From Sphingomonas panacisoli (lineage in GTDB: Bacteria > Pseudomonadota > Alphaproteobacteria > Sphingomonadales > Sphingomonadaceae), in assembly GCF_007859635.1 (NCBI RefSeq), contig NZ_CP042306.1, positions 1,426,001 through 1,490,000 of the forward strand: DNA of 64,000 nucleotides, given 5' to 3'. Every line of letters starts with the position of its first letter. Within the stretch, counting starts at the first letter, position 1. The notes under the pieces are model-generated. The model made no database searches. It was not told the origin of the DNA and saw only the letters and a list, made by a program, of their open reading frames with translations. Positions 17,153 through 29,662 of the stretch are shown here, in pieces. A program made the translations under genes and the position numbers.

Positions 17153-17481
17153 AGCAGCTTGTCGGCCGGCGGGAGAGGTACGGGCGGCGTGACAGGCGTC
17201 GGCACCGGATCGGCTGCGAGGATCACCGGCGTTGGCTTCAGGTCGGCGATCACGCGCTCGGCGGTGTTGAGCCGCTGCGCCAGGCGCCAGCGCTGCGTGC
17301 GGAGGTAGAGATAGGTCGGCAACCAACCGGCCAGGAACGTCAACAGCATCAGGAACGGCAGGTTCACCTCCGCGACCAGCCCGCCCCACAGATTGATCGT
17401 GACCCACGTCCAGTTGCCGAAGGTGAAGATCGCCGCGACGAACGCCAGCAGAACCCACAGCAGGATCTTGAGGAATTGCAT
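17149..17481 (-). CDS. LapA-like inner-membrane protein
   Basis: 110 aa. Two transmembrane segments (about 3-22 and 40-60) separated by a short periplasmic loop with NWTWVTINLW, then a cytoplasmic helix LRTQRWRLAQRLNTAER and a Pro-rich tail. This layout matches the LapA/DUF1049 family, whose gene often precedes pyrF or trpF in alphaproteobacteria. A role in LPS assembly is known for E. coli LapA only; here it is inferred. Coupled to pyrF. Confidence 0.65.
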   Translation of the reverse strand: MQFLKILLWVLLAFVAAIFTFGNWTWVTINLWGGLVAEVNLPFLMLLTFLAGWLPTYLYLRTQRWRLAQRLNTAERVIADLKPTPVILAADPVPTPVTPPVPLPPADKLL

Positions 17482-25072: not shown

Positions 25073-25480
25073 TCAGGCGGCGTAGCGCTCCGCCGTCGCG
25101 CGGATCAACGCGATCATGTTGGGGATGCCCTGCGTGCGGTTCGAACTGAGCTGGTTGCGGAGGTCGAACGGCGCCAGCGCGGCGTCGATATCGGTCGCCA
25201 GGATGTCGGCGGGCCGACGGCCCTGCACCGCCGTCAGCACCAGCGCGATGATGCCCTTCGTGATCGCCGCGTTGCTGTCGGCGAGAAAGTGGAGCGTGCC
25301 GTCATCGCGGCGGGTGGGATAGACCCAGACCGAGGCGGAACAGCCACGGACCAGAGTGGCGTCGGTCTTGAGCGGTTCCGGCATGTCCTCGAGGCTGCGG
25401 CCCAGGTCGATCAGCAATCGATAGCGGTCGTCGGCGTCGAGGAATTCGTATTCGTCTTGTAGGTCGGCGAAGTCGCGCAT
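25073..25480 (-). CDS. sufE: SufE family cysteine-desulfurase partner
   Basis: 135 aa. Accepts sulfane sulfur from a SufS-type desulfurase and passes it to the scaffold. VRGCSASVWV holds the acceptor Cys47. DSNAAITKGIIALVL and the C-terminal LSSNRTQGIPNMI are family signatures. It is alone here; the suf operon is elsewhere. Confidence 0.92.
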   Translation of the reverse strand: MRDFADLQDEYEFLDADDRYRLLIDLGRSLEDMPEPLKTDATLVRGCSASVWVYPTRRDDGTLHFLADSNAAITKGIIALVLTAVQGRRPADILATDIDAALAPFDLRNQLSSNRTQGIPNMIALIRATAERYAA

Positions 25481-25506
25481 GGCGGCGCTATAGCGTATCT
25501 TCCATT

Positions 25507-25584
25507 CCCGTCACCCCAGCGAAAGCTGGGGTCTCGGGCGAGTGAACCTGCGGCCCGAGATGCCAGCTTGCGCTGGCATGACGG
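25507..25584. repeat. TGACG-type REP palindrome
   Basis: CCCGTCACCCCAGCGAAAGC (left) and AGCTTGCGCTGGCATGACGG (right), each a small hairpin and together an inverted repeat. It begins three bases beyond the stop of the last gene of the Psp operon and may act as its 3' boundary. Confidence 0.85.
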
Positions 25585-25587
25585 AGC

Positions 25588-25836
25588 TTAGAGATCCACC
25601 CCCGACGCGATCGCTTCGAGCTTGCGGATGCGTTCCTTGAGGTCCGCGATCTCGATCCGGGCGCTGGCGTTGGGCAGGCTCGGGCCGTCGGCCTGGGCAT
25701 GCTCGCCGAACGCGTGCAGTTCGCGTTCCTTGAGCGCCAGCCAGCCTCGCCAGCCGGCGAGCGCGGCCATGCAGACCATGCCGAGTCCGGCCAGGCTCGC
25801 GCCCGCCATTGCGAAGTACAAATTGGGGTCGGTCAT
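25588..25836 (-). CDS. Psp-locus small membrane protein with coiled coil
   Basis: 82 aa. One transmembrane helix (about 7-30), a linker with an acidic/polar stretch, then ADLKERIRKLEAIASG at the C-terminus, a short form of the coiled-coil signature shared by its neighbours. ATG 25836 has GGAG nine bases upstream; the in-frame ATG at 25851 is less likely. Last gene of the pspA-led operon. The function is presumed to be in membrane stress sensing. Confidence 0.75.
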   Translation of the reverse strand: MTDPNLYFAMAGASLAGLGMVCMAALAGWRGWLALKERELHAFGEHAQADGPSLPNASARIEIADLKERIRKLEAIASGVDL

Positions 25837-25868
25837 GACAGACGTCTCCATTTGAAAGGGCGGCCGCG

Positions 25869-26135
25869 TCAGCGGTCGGTGTCGCGCAGCTTCTCGATCT
25901 CGCGGTCGAGGGTGCTGCTGGTGTTGGTGTCGGTGATCACGCGTTCCAGAACGGCGATCCGTTCCTTCAGCCCGCGAATGTCCTCGCGCAGTTGGCGGTT
26001 CTCGGCCGCCGCCGCGTCATTGCGCAGGCTGAATTCGTTACCCTGGTTGTCGCGGCCGACGCCCATCCTGGCGCGGATGATCCCGCCGATGGTGACGATG
26101 GCGACGATCGCGATGACCATTTCGAAGGGGTTCAT
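25869..26135 (-). CDS. PspB-like small membrane protein
   Basis: 88 aa. N-terminal transmembrane helix (about 4-20), a polar region with NEFSLRNDAAAAENRQ, then RGLKERIAVLERVITD and EIEKLRD near the end. The last block is almost the same as in the proteins at 26298 and 26583. Start at the ATG after CCCC, with in-frame sequence upstream rejected as non-conserved. 32 bases before the next gene. Confidence 0.75.
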   Translation of the reverse strand: MNPFEMVIAIVAIVTIGGIIRARMGVGRDNQGNEFSLRNDAAAAENRQLREDIRGLKERIAVLERVITDTNTSSTLDREIEKLRDTDR

Positions 26136-26161
26136 GGGGAGGGTCCCTTGGCTCGAAGTCG

Positions 26162-26287
26162 TTATTCGGCGGGTTGGATCTGCGCGTCGCGCATCGCGCG
26201 GCGGCGGGGGCGATCGACCCGTTCGGTCAGCCACACCGCGATGCCCGTAGGGATCGCGATGATGACGGTGAAGATAATCAGTCCCAT
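26162..26287 (-). CDS. 41-aa membrane microprotein in the psp operon
   Basis: MGLIIFTVIIAIPTGIAVWL forms a complete transmembrane helix, followed by TERVDRPRRRAM and a polar tail. GAGGAAAATACG before the ATG gives a good ribosome binding site, and it fits tightly between two PspB-like genes (10 and 26 bases). Too short for most gene callers. Unlike its neighbours it lacks the coiled-coil signature. Confidence 0.6.
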   Translation of the reverse strand: MGLIIFTVIIAIPTGIAVWLTERVDRPRRRAMRDAQIQPAE

Positions 26288-26297
26288 CGTATTTTCC

Positions 26298-26567
26298 TCA
26301 GTTCAGCGGCGCGGGTTCGTCGCGCAGCTTTTCGATTTCTTCCGCGACGTCGATGCCGCGATCGGTGACGATGCGTTCGAGTACCCGCATCCGTTGTTCG
26401 AGCCGTTCGGTCTGCGCCGCGTACTGCGCGGCTTTTTCGGCGACCTTGTCGGCCTGGAGTTCCAGCTGGCGCTGGCGGTAGGCGAACCAGGGCTTGACGT
26501 AGACGCCGCCGAAGATCGCGAGCAGGCCGCAGCTGATGCCCAGGATCGGAATGATAAGGGGGCTCAT
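26298..26567 (-). CDS. PspB-like small membrane protein
   Basis: 89 aa. Transmembrane helix at about 4-24, then a long amphipathic helix with QLELQADKVAEKAAQYAAQ, ERLEQRMRVLERIVTD and EEIEKLRDEP. This resembles PspB, which pairs with PspC to release PspA from PspF, but it is a second copy in the locus. Good spacing to its neighbours (15 and 10 bases). Confidence 0.78.
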   Translation of the reverse strand: MSPLIIPILGISCGLLAIFGGVYVKPWFAYRQRQLELQADKVAEKAAQYAAQTERLEQRMRVLERIVTDRGIDVAEEIEKLRDEPAPLN

Positions 26568-26582
26568 GGTCTAATCCTTCCT

Positions 26583-26897
26583 TCAGTCGCGGGTGCGGAG
26601 GTCTTCGATTTCGCGGCTGACGCGCTCGGCGGGATCGGTGGCGATCCGTTCGAGTACCCGCAGCCGTTCCTCGAGGCGGCCGATCTGGCCGGTCAGGCGC
26701 TCATTCTCGCTCGACAACAGTTCGATCTTGCGCTGTGCCTCGATGTCGCTGCCGTCGTTGCCACCGCGGAAGCGGTTGCGGCGGCTGGAGCGATCCTCGA
26801 GCGGCAGGCCGTGCTTGGCCCGGATCGACATCTTGATAATCCCACCGAAGATGCCCATCGCGATGATCGCCAGGACGAAGAGTTGACCGTCGTGCAC
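26583..26897 (-). CDS. PspB-like small membrane protein
   Basis: 104 aa. N-terminal transmembrane helix (about 6-22), a basic segment DRSSRRNRFRGG, then an extended coiled coil with ENERLTGQIGRLEERLRVLE, RIATDPAE and REIEDLRTRD. It shares the LERI-TD...EIE-LR signature with the two following genes, which suggests tandem duplication. 26 bases after pspC. Confidence 0.78.
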   Translation of the reverse strand: MHDGQLFVLAIIAMGIFGGIIKMSIRAKHGLPLEDRSSRRNRFRGGNDGSDIEAQRKIELLSSENERLTGQIGRLEERLRVLERIATDPAERVSREIEDLRTRD

Positions 26898-26923
26898 TGT
26901 CTTTCTCCCTTGTCAGCCGCGGC

Positions 26924-27301
26924 TCAGCGCAGGCTGTCGATTTCGTCGGCCAGCCGGCTGTTGCGGCTGGTGTAGAGGGTCTCGATGTCGGCGAGCCGGC
27001 GGTCGAGATCGCGGAACTTGGAGCGGACCTCGGCGGTCGAGCGCGACGGATTGGTGCGCACGCCCTGCCAGAACTTCGCATCCTCGGCGTCTTCGTACAG
27101 GCCGTGCGGCTTGCAGGGGGCGACCCAGGCGGTGATGAAGTAGGCGGGGATGACCCAGCCCGAGGTGATCAGCGCCAGGACCACGGTGCCGACGCGAACC
27201 ATCGTCACATCGATGCCGGTATAGTCGGCGATCCCTGCGCACACCCCGAGGAACTTCTTGTTCTGCTTGTCGAGGTAGAATTTGGTACGGCTGGCGGACA
27301 T
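26924..27301 (-). CDS. pspC: Phage shock protein C
   Basis: 125 aa. PspC domain near the start: FYLDKQNKKFLGVCAGIADY, then IDVTMVRVG and a hydrophobic helix (about 38-60) with SGWVIPAYF. The C-terminal half is a coiled coil (FRDLDRRLADIETLY ... RLADEIDSLR). The start follows GGAGGAACTGAG, which overlaps the end of pspB. Inner-membrane stress sensor acting with PspB. Confidence 0.92.
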   Translation of the reverse strand: MSASRTKFYLDKQNKKFLGVCAGIADYTGIDVTMVRVGTVVLALITSGWVIPAYFITAWVAPCKPHGLYEDAEDAKFWQGVRTNPSRSTAEVRSKFRDLDRRLADIETLYTSRNSRLADEIDSLR

Positions 27302-27302
27302 C

Positions 27303-27572
27303 TCAGTTCCTCCGGGTGGTAAAGTCGGTGGGATCGGCGGCGAGCGGCATGCTCGTCTTCCAATCGGGGTGGTCGGCGGCAACGATGCGTTCGACCGTCG
27401 AAACGCGATCTTCGAGGCGGCGAGCGAGCGAGTAGAGCTCGTCGAGCAGCTTCTCGTCCTCGTTCGTGATCTTCGGTGCTTGCTTCCATTTCGTGACGTA
27501 GTGGAAGATCAGCCAGGGCAGGCCGATGAACAGCATCCCGACGATCATGACGGGCAGCAGAAACTCGTCCAT
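27303..27572 (-). CDS. pspB: Phage shock protein B
   Basis: 89 aa. Transmembrane helix at 4-25 (LLPVMIVGMLFIGLPWLIFH), then a cytoplasmic helix with LLDELYSLARRLEDRVSTVE, as in PspB. One base separates it from pspA and from pspC. Together with PspC it is thought to transmit membrane damage to PspA. Confidence 0.92.
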   Translation of the reverse strand: MDEFLLPVMIVGMLFIGLPWLIFHYVTKWKQAPKITNEDEKLLDELYSLARRLEDRVSTVERIVAADHPDWKTSMPLAADPTDFTTRRN

Positions 27573-27573
27573 C

Positions 27574-28242
27574 TTACGACCCCTTCTTCATGCGGGCCTT
27601 GAGCGCGGCGAGCTCGGCATCGACCTTCTCGGACGCCTTCAGCTCGGCCATCTCTTCTTCCAGCGTCTTGGGCTCGGCACCCAGGCCGGCGGCCTCGGCG
27701 CGACCCTCGGCGAGGTCGACATGACGTTCGAGAATGTCGAAGCGCGAGAAGGCGTCCTGCGTGCGGCTGGCCGAATAGACCTCGCGCAGCTTGAAGCGGT
27801 TGTTGGCGCTTTCCAGCCGGGTCGCGATCGAGCTCTGGCGGTTGCGCGCCTCGCTCAGCTTCTTCTGCAGCTTGGCGATGTCTTCCTCGGACCCGCGCAG
27901 CGCGTCGTCGAGAACGGTGACCTGGCTGGTCAGCTCGGCGATCATGTCGGTCGCCTTCTGGCGCTCGACCAACGCGGCCTTGGCCAGGTCCTCGCGATCC
28001 TTCGACAGCGCCAGTTCGGCTTTCTCGGTCCAGCTTTCCTCGAGCTGGGCGAGCTTGCTCATGTGACGCCGCATCTCCTTCTGGTCGGCGATGGTGCGCG
28101 CGGCGGAGGCGCGAACCTCGACCAGCGTTTCTTCCATCTCCAGGATGATCATGCGGATCATCTTCGCCGGATCTTCCGCCTTATCGAGAAGGTCGGTGAA
28201 GTTGGCGGCGATGATGTCGCGGGTTCGCGAAAAAATGCCCAT
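27574..28242 (-). CDS. pspA: Phage shock protein A (PspA/IM30)
   Basis: 222 aa, predominantly coiled coil, ESCRT-III-like. The N-terminal MGIFSRTRDIIAANFTDLLD is the amphipathic membrane-binding helix, followed by EDPAKMIRMIILEMEETL. Known roles: membrane repair, and inhibition of PspF in unstressed cells. GAGGAG lies 9 bases before the ATG. It follows the exported peptide ORF and a hairpin in the sigma-54-controlled transcript. Confidence 0.96.
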   Translation of the reverse strand: MGIFSRTRDIIAANFTDLLDKAEDPAKMIRMIILEMEETLVEVRASAARTIADQKEMRRHMSKLAQLEESWTEKAELALSKDREDLAKAALVERQKATDMIAELTSQVTVLDDALRGSEEDIAKLQKKLSEARNRQSSIATRLESANNRFKLREVYSASRTQDAFSRFDILERHVDLAEGRAEAAGLGAEPKTLEEEMAELKASEKVDAELAALKARMKKGS

Positions 28243-28284
28243 GTTGAAGTTACTCCTCGGAATTTACGCTTTACTCGGTGGGGT

Positions 28285-28321
28285 TGCCGGGGCGGGCAGC
28301 AAGGGGGAAACCCGCCCGGCA
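28285..28321 (-). promoter_or_regulatory. Intercistronic hairpin upstream of pspA
   Basis: TGCCGGGCGGG and its near complement CCCGCCCCGGCA form a stem with an approximately 14-base loop, between the 48-aa peptide ORF and pspA. There is no T-run, so it is more likely an mRNA stability or processing element than a terminator. Confidence 0.5.
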
Positions 28322-28328
28322 GTGGCCG

Positions 28329-28475
28329 TTACGCCCGGGGGGCGGCGGCGACCTGGGTCGGTTGAGCCTGGGCGACTGCCGGGCCGAGCGCCGCCATCAT
28401 CAGCGACGAACCGCAAACCAGCGTGCTGACGACCACCACGAAAGTGCGGCCCAGACCGTTCGAAAAGTTGTTCAT
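28329..28475 (-). CDS. 48-aa exported or membrane peptide, first ORF of the psp operon
   Basis: Starts MNNFSNGLGRTFVVVVSTLV, continues through a small-residue region to a possible signal-peptidase site AVAQA, and ends in a Pro/Ala tail. AGGGAG lies 8 bases before the ATG. It is the first open frame after the sigma-54 promoter, so it should be induced with pspA. No homologue known to me. Confidence 0.65.
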   Translation of the reverse strand: MNNFSNGLGRTFVVVVSTLVCGSSLMMAALGPAVAQAQPTQVAAAPRA

Positions 28476-28528: not shown

Positions 28529-28544
28529 TGCAGCTACCGTGCCA
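28529..28544 (-). promoter_or_regulatory. Sigma-54 promoter of the psp operon
   Basis: Reading the minus strand, TGGCACG-GTAG-CTGCA matches the sigma-54 consensus TGGCACG-N4-TTGCW at all but one position, with the GG and GC dinucleotides exactly 10 bases apart. It points at the 48-aa ORF and pspA; transcription should start about 12 bases downstream, near 28518. Confidence 0.8.
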
Positions 28545-28645: not shown

Positions 28646-29662
28646 ATGGAGCGTACGACGCACGTCATCGGCCAATCCGGCGCGTTCCTGGACGCGCTCG
28701 AACGCGCCAGCCGCGCGGCCGCGCTCGACCGTCCGGTGCTCGTGATCGGGGAGCGCGGGACGGGCAAGGAGCTGGTTGCCGAGCGCCTCCACCGCCTCAG
28801 CCCGCGCTGGGACCAGCCGCTGATCGTCATGAACTGCGCCGCACTGCCGGAGACGTTGATCGAGGCCGAACTGTTCGGACACGAAGCGGGCGCCTTTACC
28901 GGCGCGACCAAGGCTCGGGCGGGGCGGTTCGAGGAGGCCGATGGCGGCACCTTGTTCCTCGACGAGCTCGGTACGCTGTCGATGGCGGCGCAGGAACGGC
29001 TGCTGCGCGCGACCGAATATGGCGAGGTCACGCGGATCGGCGCCTCGCATCCGGTCCGGGTCGATGTGCGCATCGTCGCGGCCACCAACGAACATTTGCC
29101 GGAGAAGGTCGAGAAGAACCAGTTCCGCGCGGATTTGCTCGACCGATTGAGCTTCGAGGTGGTGACGCTGCCTCCCTTGCGCGCGCGACCGGGCGATGTC
29201 GGCGTGCTCGCCGATCATTTCGGGCGGCGCATGGCGGCGGAAATGGAGCGCGACTGGGAGGGTTTCTCGCCCGAGGCGATCGACGCGCTGATCGACTATC
29301 AATGGCCCGGCAACGTCCGCGAGTTGCGCAACGTCGTCGAACGCGCTGTCTATCGCTGGGAGCAGCCCGGCCCGATCGCACTGATCGAGTTCGATCCGTT
29401 CCAGTCGCCGCACCGCCCCGGCGCCGCGACAAGCGCGCAGCCTGTACCGGCGCCCGCGATGCCCGCGGCGCCCTCCGCAGGGCCGACCGAAGCCGAACCC
29501 GCCGACTTCAAATCCCGCGTGGCACGGTTCGAACGCGACGTGCTGGCCAAGGCGCTCGCCGCCAACCGCTTCAACCAGCGGCACACCGCCGACGCCCTCG
29601 GGCTGAGCTACGACCAGCTCCGCCATGCTCTTCGGCGGCACGACCTGCTTCCCGGCGGGTGA
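28646..29662 (+). CDS. pspF: Phage shock operon activator PspF
   Basis: 338-aa sigma-54 activator with no N-terminal receiver domain. AAA+ core with Walker A GERGTGKE (35-42), the sigma-54 loop GAFTGA (82-87) and Walker B GTLFLDELG (Asp106-Glu107). R-finger region RADLLDRLSF. The C-terminal Fis-type helix-turn-helix includes HTADALGLSYDQL. No obvious Shine-Dalgarno sequence: TAGGG abuts the ATG, so initiation may be weak. Divergent from the psp operon it should control. Confidence 0.94.
   Translation: MERTTHVIGQSGAFLDALERASRAAALDRPVLVIGERGTGKELVAERLHRLSPRWDQPLIVMNCAALPETLIEAELFGHEAGAFTGATKARAGRFEEADGGTLFLDELGTLSMAAQERLLRATEYGEVTRIGASHPVRVDVRIVAATNEHLPEKVEKNQFRADLLDRLSFEVVTLPPLRARPGDVGVLADHFGRRMAAEMERDWEGFSPEAIDALIDYQWPGNVRELRNVVERAVYRWEQPGPIALIEFDPFQSPHRPGAATSAQPVPAPAMPAAPSAGPTEAEPADFKSRVARFERDVLAKALAANRFNQRHTADALGLSYDQLRHALRRHDLLPGG

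Follow-up and report, generated by a model that had tools for sequence, protein, structure and literature searches.

The psp operon of Sphingomonas panacisoli

The subject of this study is an enlarged phage shock protein (psp) operon in a stretch of 64,000 nucleotides, here called the window, from Sphingomonas panacisoli (NCBI RefSeq assembly GCF_007859635.1, contig NZ_CP042306.1, positions 1,426,001 to 1,490,000 of the forward strand). The operon lies on the minus strand and faces a divergent pspF; its order is sigma-54 site, o0, pspA, pspB, pspC, followed by an array of small genes, o1 to o5. The activator gene pspF (28646–29662, plus strand, ATG start taken from the sequence) scores 466.5 bits with TIGR02974 when translated from 28649; the cut-off is 443.55. 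On the minus strand, pspA (27574–28242) reaches 270.3 bits with TIGR02977, pspB (27303–27572) matches PF06667 at E = 1.1e-26 and TIGR02976 at 1.3e-24, and pspC (26924–27301) scores 116.7 bits with TIGR02978. These four genes pass the curated NCBIfam cut-offs; o1–o5 pass no Pfam or NCBIfam cut-off.

All five array genes are on the minus strand and encode a membrane helix. The product of o1 (26583–26897, 104 amino acids, GTG start) continues with an IRAKHG linker, a coil and the full C-terminal tail described below, and that of o2 (26298–26567, 89 amino acids) with an AEKAAQYA coil and the full tail. The product of o3 (26162–26287, 41 amino acids) consists of a single membrane helix without the tail. 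The full tail is present again in o4 (25869–26135, 88 amino acids, ATG start), whose homologues begin MNPFEMV, which makes the longer GTG start at 26234 the less likely one. Only half of the tail (IEIADLKERIRKLEAIASGVDL) is found in o5 (25588–25851, 87 amino acids, or from a later ATG at 25833). The gaps after pspC, o1, o2, o3 and o4 are 26, 15, 10, 26 and 17 bases, the last becoming 35 with the later o5 start. The original observation, that five closely spaced small genes follow pspA-pspB-pspC, is confirmed.

The sigma-54 (−24/−12) promoter, TGGCACGGTAGCTGC, has the form GG-N10-GC, lies at 28530–28544 on the minus strand, 302 bases upstream of pspA, and scores 6 of 7. The gene pspA was located in 55 of 61 genomes, and regions were taken for the 54 besides that of the window. 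A site scoring at least 5 is present within 500 bases upstream of pspA in 52 of these 54 loci, compared with 3% of 1003 random 300-base segments from other loci, the two kinds of segment differing in length. The features expected of a PspF regulon, a sigma-54 promoter upstream and co-directional genes at gaps of 10–35 bases behind pspC, are therefore present in the window.

A shared C-terminal tail

The products of o1, o2 and o4 carry one common C-terminal module; o5 has only its first half and o3 has none of it. A profile of this tail, A3, was made with 38 positions and 14 rows, which include o1, o2 and o4 of the window and none from PspB, PspC or o5. Over the whole 3.4 Mb genome it finds o1, o2 and o4 at E values of 4e-17 to 4e-15, pspC at 0.002, pspB at 0.07 and o5 at 0.38. 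These are its six top-ranked places, pspB and o5 being weak. In pspC the shared tail (RRLADIETLYTSRNSRLADEIDSLR) forms the last ~36 residues. The next places follow at E values of 0.43 and 0.48; the former, seventh in rank, lies in the same window (17242–17304, minus strand) and is probably a chance match.

Could this likeness reflect nothing more than the composition of coiled coils? The tail is partly coil-like, and some coiled coils in the PDB score weakly, with chains covering at most 20 of the 38 A3 positions at E values of 0.03 or more; no relevant solved structure is among these matches. Against this stand the genome-wide rank of A3, the independent profile A4 described below, and two controls. 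The hhalign scores of A3 are 27.4 with the PspC tail and 29.4 with PspB, whereas windows from the coiled coils of PspA itself score at most 15.5, and none of 200 class-preserving column permutations reached the A3 score with the PspC tail or with PspB (largest values 24.7 and 21.6). In addition, the spacing R-x4-E-x3-T-[DS]-x11-L is fixed across profiles A1, A3, A6 and A7, with o4 having two more residues behind T-D. Generic composition is thus a very improbable explanation, and the shared C-terminal helix of the array proteins is confirmed as real. The peptides first quoted for these helices are all present, o1, o2 and o4 ending in EIE-x-LR and PspC in EIDSLR. The claim of four related helices holds for o1, o2 and o4 over the full tail and for o5 over the first half, and the likeness exceeds that of generic coiled coils.

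Relation of the array to PspB and PspC

The array proteins share with PspB (PF06667/TIGR02976) their size, the single N-terminal membrane helix, an R-x4-E coil and the location in a psp operon. Hydropathy plots of o1, o2, o4 and o5 agree with this build, showing a short N-terminus, one N-terminal membrane helix and then the coil. Positions 1–20 of the tail profile align with the E. coli PspB coil at 19.2 bits, a score that none of 2000 class-preserving shuffles equalled, and in profile-profile comparison A3 and PspB align over 24–26 columns with a probability of 87, in the first part of the tail only. A profile of 14 outgroup PspB proteins finds pspB, then o2 (E = 0.047) and o1 (0.27), and nothing else at E values up to 10 genome-wide.

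The array proteins nonetheless differ from PspB. They lack the HYxT motif and the W-[RK] end, have an added PspC-type end, fall below the curated cut-offs and, in the case of o4, belong by full-length profile to a different family. The score of o2 is 13.4 bits against a cut-off of 25.6 for Pfam PF06667 and 15.6 against 51.7 for NCBIfam TIGR02976; o4 reaches 10.3 bits with the latter (cut-off 51.7), and o1, o3 and o5 are not listed for PspB. Inspection by eye of o1, o2, o4 and o5 revealed neither the H-Y-x-T behind the helix nor the W near the end. The pspB of the window itself has HYVT and PDWK, and H, Y, T and W are among the invariant columns of the PspB profile A2.

In its second half (T-D/S … EI..LR) the tail resembles PspC and not PspB. 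A3 aligns with outgroup PspC tails over 34–35 ungapped columns with a probability of 88 (15 of 19 tails used), and the invariant columns of those tails include R, E, T, S and L, spaced as R, E, T, D and L are in the array. A weak match to the end of TIGR02978 is seen in o1, o2 and o4 (E = 0.003–0.03). The likeness to the TIGR02978 tail consists of the R-x4-E-x3-T-[SD]-x11-L spacing and the EI(D/E)xLR end. Unlike PspC, the array proteins lack the PF04024 membrane domain, which is unmatched in o1–o5, and the tail is the sole common part. A purely PspC-derived tail was rejected, since E. coli PspC matches it weakly and E. coli PspB matches its first half, and it is for this reason described as composite. 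Given the weak E. coli match, the link to PspC depends on alphaproteobacterial PspC. By these comparisons the tail is composite, a PspB-type coil joined to an alphaproteobacterial PspC-type end.

A separate family outside the psp operon

The first interpretation of the array was a tandem duplication of a PspB-type subunit. A profile, A4, was made from 15 proteins from other families of the order, none of them from a sphingomonad and one (L088) psp-linked. It matches o4 at 2.4e-15 (positions 1–73 of 73), o2 at 1.2e-11 (16–73) and o1 at 3.3e-7 (35–73); pspB, pspC and o5 were not reported by A4 in the window's genome at a cut-off of 1e-4. In o4 both head and tail belong to this PspB-like family of orphans, that is, of genes mostly outside psp operons, and in o2 and o1 only the coil-tail parts. 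Tandem copying of the local pspB was rejected, since the sister-family profile matches o4, o2 and o1 and not pspB. What remains of the first interpretation is one related set with a PspB-like build in a psp operon; its members do not reach the PspB cut-offs, and the end of their tail is PspC-like.

Outside the window's family, A3 at 1e-4 matches 44 of 61 genomes of the order, at one place in 37 and at two in 7. In 15 of these 44 genomes pspA could be placed, and in all 15 at least one match is separated from pspA by over 300 kb or lies on a different contig. Two genomes (G049, G059) have a second match adjoining pspA, and in L088 and L110 the gene also lies behind a pspC-like frame. The orphan proteins were read as 71–116 amino acids long, and their heads resemble o4. 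Three of them were tested and match the PspB and PspC models weakly (E = 0.0002–0.012). No conserved orphan neighbourhood was found: the widest cluster of flanking frames covers 6 of 29 loci and for the most part overlaps the orphan gene.

The family is not restricted to the order, a possibility that was rejected because matches occur in three genomes of f133 (same class), in 15 genomes of another class and, weakly, in one of f96. In a sample of the class, A4 at 1e-4 matched 7 of 289 genomes and A3 at 1e-5 matched 6, the window's family accounting for 5 in each. In a sample of the phylum, A3 at 1e-5 matched 36 of 299 genomes with 1–2 genes each in the 15 of another class, which may be Gammaproteobacteria. 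For 13 of these genomes, 17 stretches of 8 kb contained no pspA match; among the frames of a stretch E. coli PspC picked one of the genes and E. coli PspB one (E up to 1e-4). Orphan tails, mostly from another class, align with PspC tails with a probability of 93 and with PspB with a probability of 90. Among the best 8,000 candidates, those with the most shared words, all but 4 pass an E value of 0.001. Within the 120 matches listed there is no Pfam domain, and the named ones are mostly ‘hypothetical protein’, with a few ‘Phage shock protein B’.

Elsewhere, the family thus consists mostly of one or two genes away from pspA. The A4 matches and the copies outside psp operons indicate that an older, separate and unnamed PspB-like family has expanded within the psp operon to form the array, which is not a row of pspB copies. 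This points to a large unannotated protein family and corrects the view of the array as simple pspB copies.

In the other class of the phylum, an unannotated family with 1–2 copies and the pattern LE-x-IVTD-x5-L occurs in L255–L270 and L274 (f164, f196, f197, f177), where the stretches taken showed no pspA match. In L271 and L272 a tail gene stands in tandem with a second that bears a divergent tail, RVEVLERAVLDxDRDLRRKFDGL.

PspB duplicates in psp operons have been listed before, with AOL22920.1 as an example (Ravi et al., 2024; PMC11237479), as have fusions of a divergent PspB to PspC and PspC proteins with a PspB-like end. The parts of that article available to us describe no arrays of 3–8 genes, orphan family, variable heads or function, and a term search of its main text found no naming of sphingomonads. 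The main text of Popp et al. (2022; PMC9239133), as far as it was accessible, contains neither ‘sphingo’ nor ‘alphaproteobacteria’. The first interpretation named no functional description of such an array, and none was found in the literature searched, in which subscription journals were partly covered.

Conservation of the array among sphingomonads

In 35 readable loci of the same genus, the window included and L032, which ends in pspA, set aside, 2–5 full-tail genes follow pspC, with o5 in addition in 27. These and 79 of 80 named loci make up 107 deduplicated loci; the named loci were chosen by likeness to o2, which biases the presence of o2 and its head types among them. Tail genes beyond pspC number 3 in 53 loci, 4 in 37, 5 in 10, 2 in 5 and 1 in 1; L032, at a contig end, has none. 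There are accordingly 3–5 in 100 of the 107 loci, and the three commonest layouts account for 75. With members named by their tails alone, and with absent and repeated members allowed, the order B-C-o1-o1b-o2-o4-o5 is kept in 106 of 107 loci. The usual Sphingomonas order behind the sigma-54 promoter is B-C-o1-(o1b)-o2-o4-o5. A rare member, x, is first in 5 loci and stands later in 4, and o5 is a single copy in 104.

Mapping of the operon in sphingomonads, which had been proposed as a check, thus shows a widely kept arrangement. Within the family, A3 at E values up to 0.01 has matches in 86 of 91 genera and in 238 of 249 genomes, a count that includes the tail of PspC itself in some genomes (four places were counted in that of the window). 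Twenty further regions from 18 genomes were picked partly for high counts, two of them (L221 and L222) being like copies in one genome; 19 show A-B-C and then 4 to 8 A3 matches above 20 bits. The maximum among the operons read is 8 tail genes, in L217.

At a lone second place in G120 (L220), the tail occurs on a different kind of head, with …RVGTLEEIATDPAERTAREIEALR, and there are no psp genes in its 7.5 kb stretch. In four other loci (L214, L224, L225 and L231) near-identical tail ends (ATDPARRTAEEIE-LR) are found on different heads, in L214 in two members, and an extra C-terminal peptide like GVPLNIxxKExA is common to several members of one operon. These ends suggest swapping between neighbouring genes.

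Variable heads and constant tails

Heads and tails were compared between pairs of loci, omitting for each gene the loci with two copies of it; the pairs do not count as independent, and few of them are clean sister cases. At pspA DNA identities of at least 0.94, the median identities of head and tail are 0.93 and 0.93 for PspB, 0.95 and 1.00 for PspC, 0.91 and 0.97 for o1, 0.87 and 0.95 for o1b, 0.85 and 0.94 for o2, 0.86 and 0.98 for o4, and 0.93 and 1.00 for o5. A pair was called mosaic if its heads were less than 0.45 and its tails more than 0.8 identical. Given for pspA identities of at least 0.94, 0.90–0.94 and 0.86–0.90, mosaic pairs number 0/52, 2/68 and 20/73 for o1; 0/19, 0/50 and 0/29 for o1b; 1/51, 2/67 and 1/61 for o2; 4/50, 9/52 and 2/74 for o4; 0/52, 0/71 and 1/81 for o5; 0/58, 0/71 and 0/82 for PspB; and 1/58, 0/71 and 0/82 for PspC. 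The first four o4 pairs all involve L080 and therefore represent one event, and the PspC pair, an apparent head change between L174 and L178, was rejected as an artefact of masked bases. The reverse mosaic, a tail below 0.45 with a head above 0.8, was found in no pair of any class.

The clearest case is that of L081 and L082 (pspA 0.96), in which the o2 heads are 0.29 and the tails 0.91 identical. The L081 head is closest to those of L071 and L078 (0.71; pspA 0.72 and 0.70), and its tail to that of L082, tied with those of the more distant L164 and L166 (0.91; pspA 0.79 and 0.78). Measured over 60-base segments of this pair, DNA identity drops under 0.75 at four places, the start of pspB (0.43, 0.72), the o2 head (0.52–0.68), the o4 head (0.58–0.70) and the DNA behind o5 (0.63, 0.73); elsewhere it lies at 0.83–1.0, with 0.78 touched in pspC. 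The low identity at its start indicates that the beginning of pspB itself can vary too. Between L079 and L080, the latter without o2, the o4 heads are 0.36 and the tails 0.98 identical. In a few close relatives, then, the tail is conserved and the head belongs to a type whose other carriers are distant species. Clustering at 50% identified head types for o2 only, o1 and o4 each giving one main cluster. After 5 untyped loci were dropped, the two o2 head types comprise 83 and 10 loci and require at least 7 changes on the pspA tree.

Such mosaicism may have arisen by replacement of heads. It may instead have arisen from tandem copies with different heads whose tails were homogenised by gene conversion before one copy was lost, an account to which we would give somewhat less than an even chance. 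In its favour, both o2 head types stand side by side with very similar tails in 4 of the 107 loci (L137, L138, L139 and L156), and likewise in L223. In L081 and L082, however, the o2 and o4 heads have DNA identities of 0.52–0.70 at the same gene position with tails at 0.85–1.0, a pattern that local replacement fits at least as well. Copy loss concerns the mosaicism only and is compatible with any functional reading. Whether by head replacement or by loss of like-tailed copies, these comparisons indicate that the tail is constrained and the head less so.

Membrane topology and possible function

Hydropathy analysis places a membrane helix in 424 of 437 single-copy o1, o1b, o2, o4 and o5 proteins, preceded by medians of 3–8 residues. 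On average the C side is more positive, as in 56 of 56 o1b, 87 of 98 o2, 73 of 87 o4 and 104 of 104 o5 proteins. This charge distribution fits a location of the array tails inside the cell (C-in). The C-terminal part of PspC has been treated as putatively periplasmic, with more than one topology, in the sections consulted of PMC3068692. An AlphaFold model of o2 is one long helix (residues 5–83; pLDDT 73.1, pTM 0.32) and is uninformative on mechanism.

We give a little better than an even chance to the interpretation that the array encodes adaptors in the membrane, alike in tail and variable in head, that act on PspB, PspC and PspA. On this view, a separate family of small PspB-like membrane proteins was taken into the psp operon and multiplied there. 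The N-terminus of each member is very short, and its single membrane helix is joined by a variable linker to the conserved composite tail. The PspF/sigma-54 promoter would drive their synthesis along with that of PspA, PspB and PspC, presumably by co-transcription of the whole row. In known systems the C-terminal part of PspC binds PspA and is tied to psp induction in E. coli and Yersinia. Because the array tail resembles PspB and PspC, it should meet PspB, PspC or PspA. It may pair with the tails of PspB, PspC and its siblings and offer PspA extra docking sites on the membrane, the interchangeable heads deciding where, or on which membrane disturbance, docking happens. As a result, several membrane inputs or anchors would converge on one PspA-PspF switch. 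The earlier idea of a graded or multi-input sensor, which is plausible, gains some support from the variable heads.

Several results weigh against the adaptor interpretation. Tail binding and co-expression are both things that we infer. A3 matches E. coli PspC weakly (3.6 bits over the whole protein, 5.6 over the last 55 residues; 13 of 2000 shuffles equal it). With A4, 5 of 2000 shuffles do as well, for E. coli PspC and for PspB alike, and with the tails mostly of another class they do so in 26 of 5000 cases for E. coli PspC and 0 of 5000 for PspB. A genome search with the outgroup PspC-tail profile (15 rows) found pspC alone and no array genes; this profile is also less specific, since it scores 24.7 against a stretch of PspA and its score with PspB was equalled in 2 of 200 permutations. 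The charge rule is unclear for o1, in which the C side is more positive in 38 of 92 proteins. Lastly, no sigma-54 site is clearly present before the copies outside psp operons: of 28 upstream stretches, one scores at least 5, where 3 of the 28 belong to psp-linked copies and that of L096 is only 119 bases long. The family can therefore work outside the PspF regulon. Set against the 3% of control segments, this count also led to rejection of the orphans as unlinked PspF targets like pspG.

The array proteins could also be effectors rather than sensors, extra anchors that hold PspA scaffolds on different lipid environments and give no input to PspF; this is possible, on the doubtful side. Enterobacterial PspG, and perhaps PspD, are regarded as effectors, and both resemble the array proteins as small membrane proteins of the PspF regulon; E. 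coli PspD is not reported by A3. Lying behind pspA-pspB-pspC and a single sigma-54 promoter, the array would be expressed only with the operon switched on, and heads with almost nothing before the helix leave little for sensing outside the membrane. The PspC-type end, however, with its link to PspA binding and psp induction, suggests a regulatory role too.

How PspB and PspC sense membrane damage is, to our knowledge, still an open question; native alleles that bear different heads on one tail would, by comparison, allow the sensing part to be told from the signalling part. A bolder reading, which we consider unlikely, is that of a receptor set in which heads are exchanged like cassettes by recombination and all report through one constant tail to PspA. 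Each head would recognise its own lipid state or intruder in the membrane, such as phage or bacteriocin membrane proteins, mislocalised pores or solvents. If this were true, the phage-shock system would be a modular membrane-sensing repertoire, not a single sensor. Still less probable is a role as dampers, in which tail-bearing competitors occupy PspB, PspC or PspA, so that the response is graded or shut off. The same tail without the PspC membrane domain and the late position in the operon would agree with such a role; by itself it does not account for the variable heads and the several copies kept across the family.

Other features of the locus

Between the promoter and pspA lies o0 (28329–28475, minus strand), which encodes a peptide of 48 amino acids with a hydrophobic, signal-like N-terminus. 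It is found at the equal position in two close relatives, L056 (88%) and L057 (83%), with weak matches (31–36%) in 5 others. Its position possibly corresponds to that of Zymomonas ZMO1062, a ‘putative pspD’ numbered beside pspA. In Zymomonas, pspA, pspB, pspC and ZMO1062 change with ethanol, xylose or temperature (PMC3495753, PMC8645129, PMC8237431); two of these papers call ZMO1062 pspD, and the portions consulted name no array genes. The tail-less o3 is matched in 6 of the 54 other loci (L056–L059, L062 and L073; tblastn, E up to 0.1).

Beyond o5, the gene at 25073–25480 is presumably sufE. Directly behind o5, at 25490–25580, there are two palindromes resembling stem-loops (GCCAGCGCAAGCTGGC and CCCCAGCTTTCGCTGGGG), perhaps the terminator of the operon or a repeat element; the 24-base stretch that holds the second, CCCCAGCTTTCGCTGGGG, occurs once in the window.

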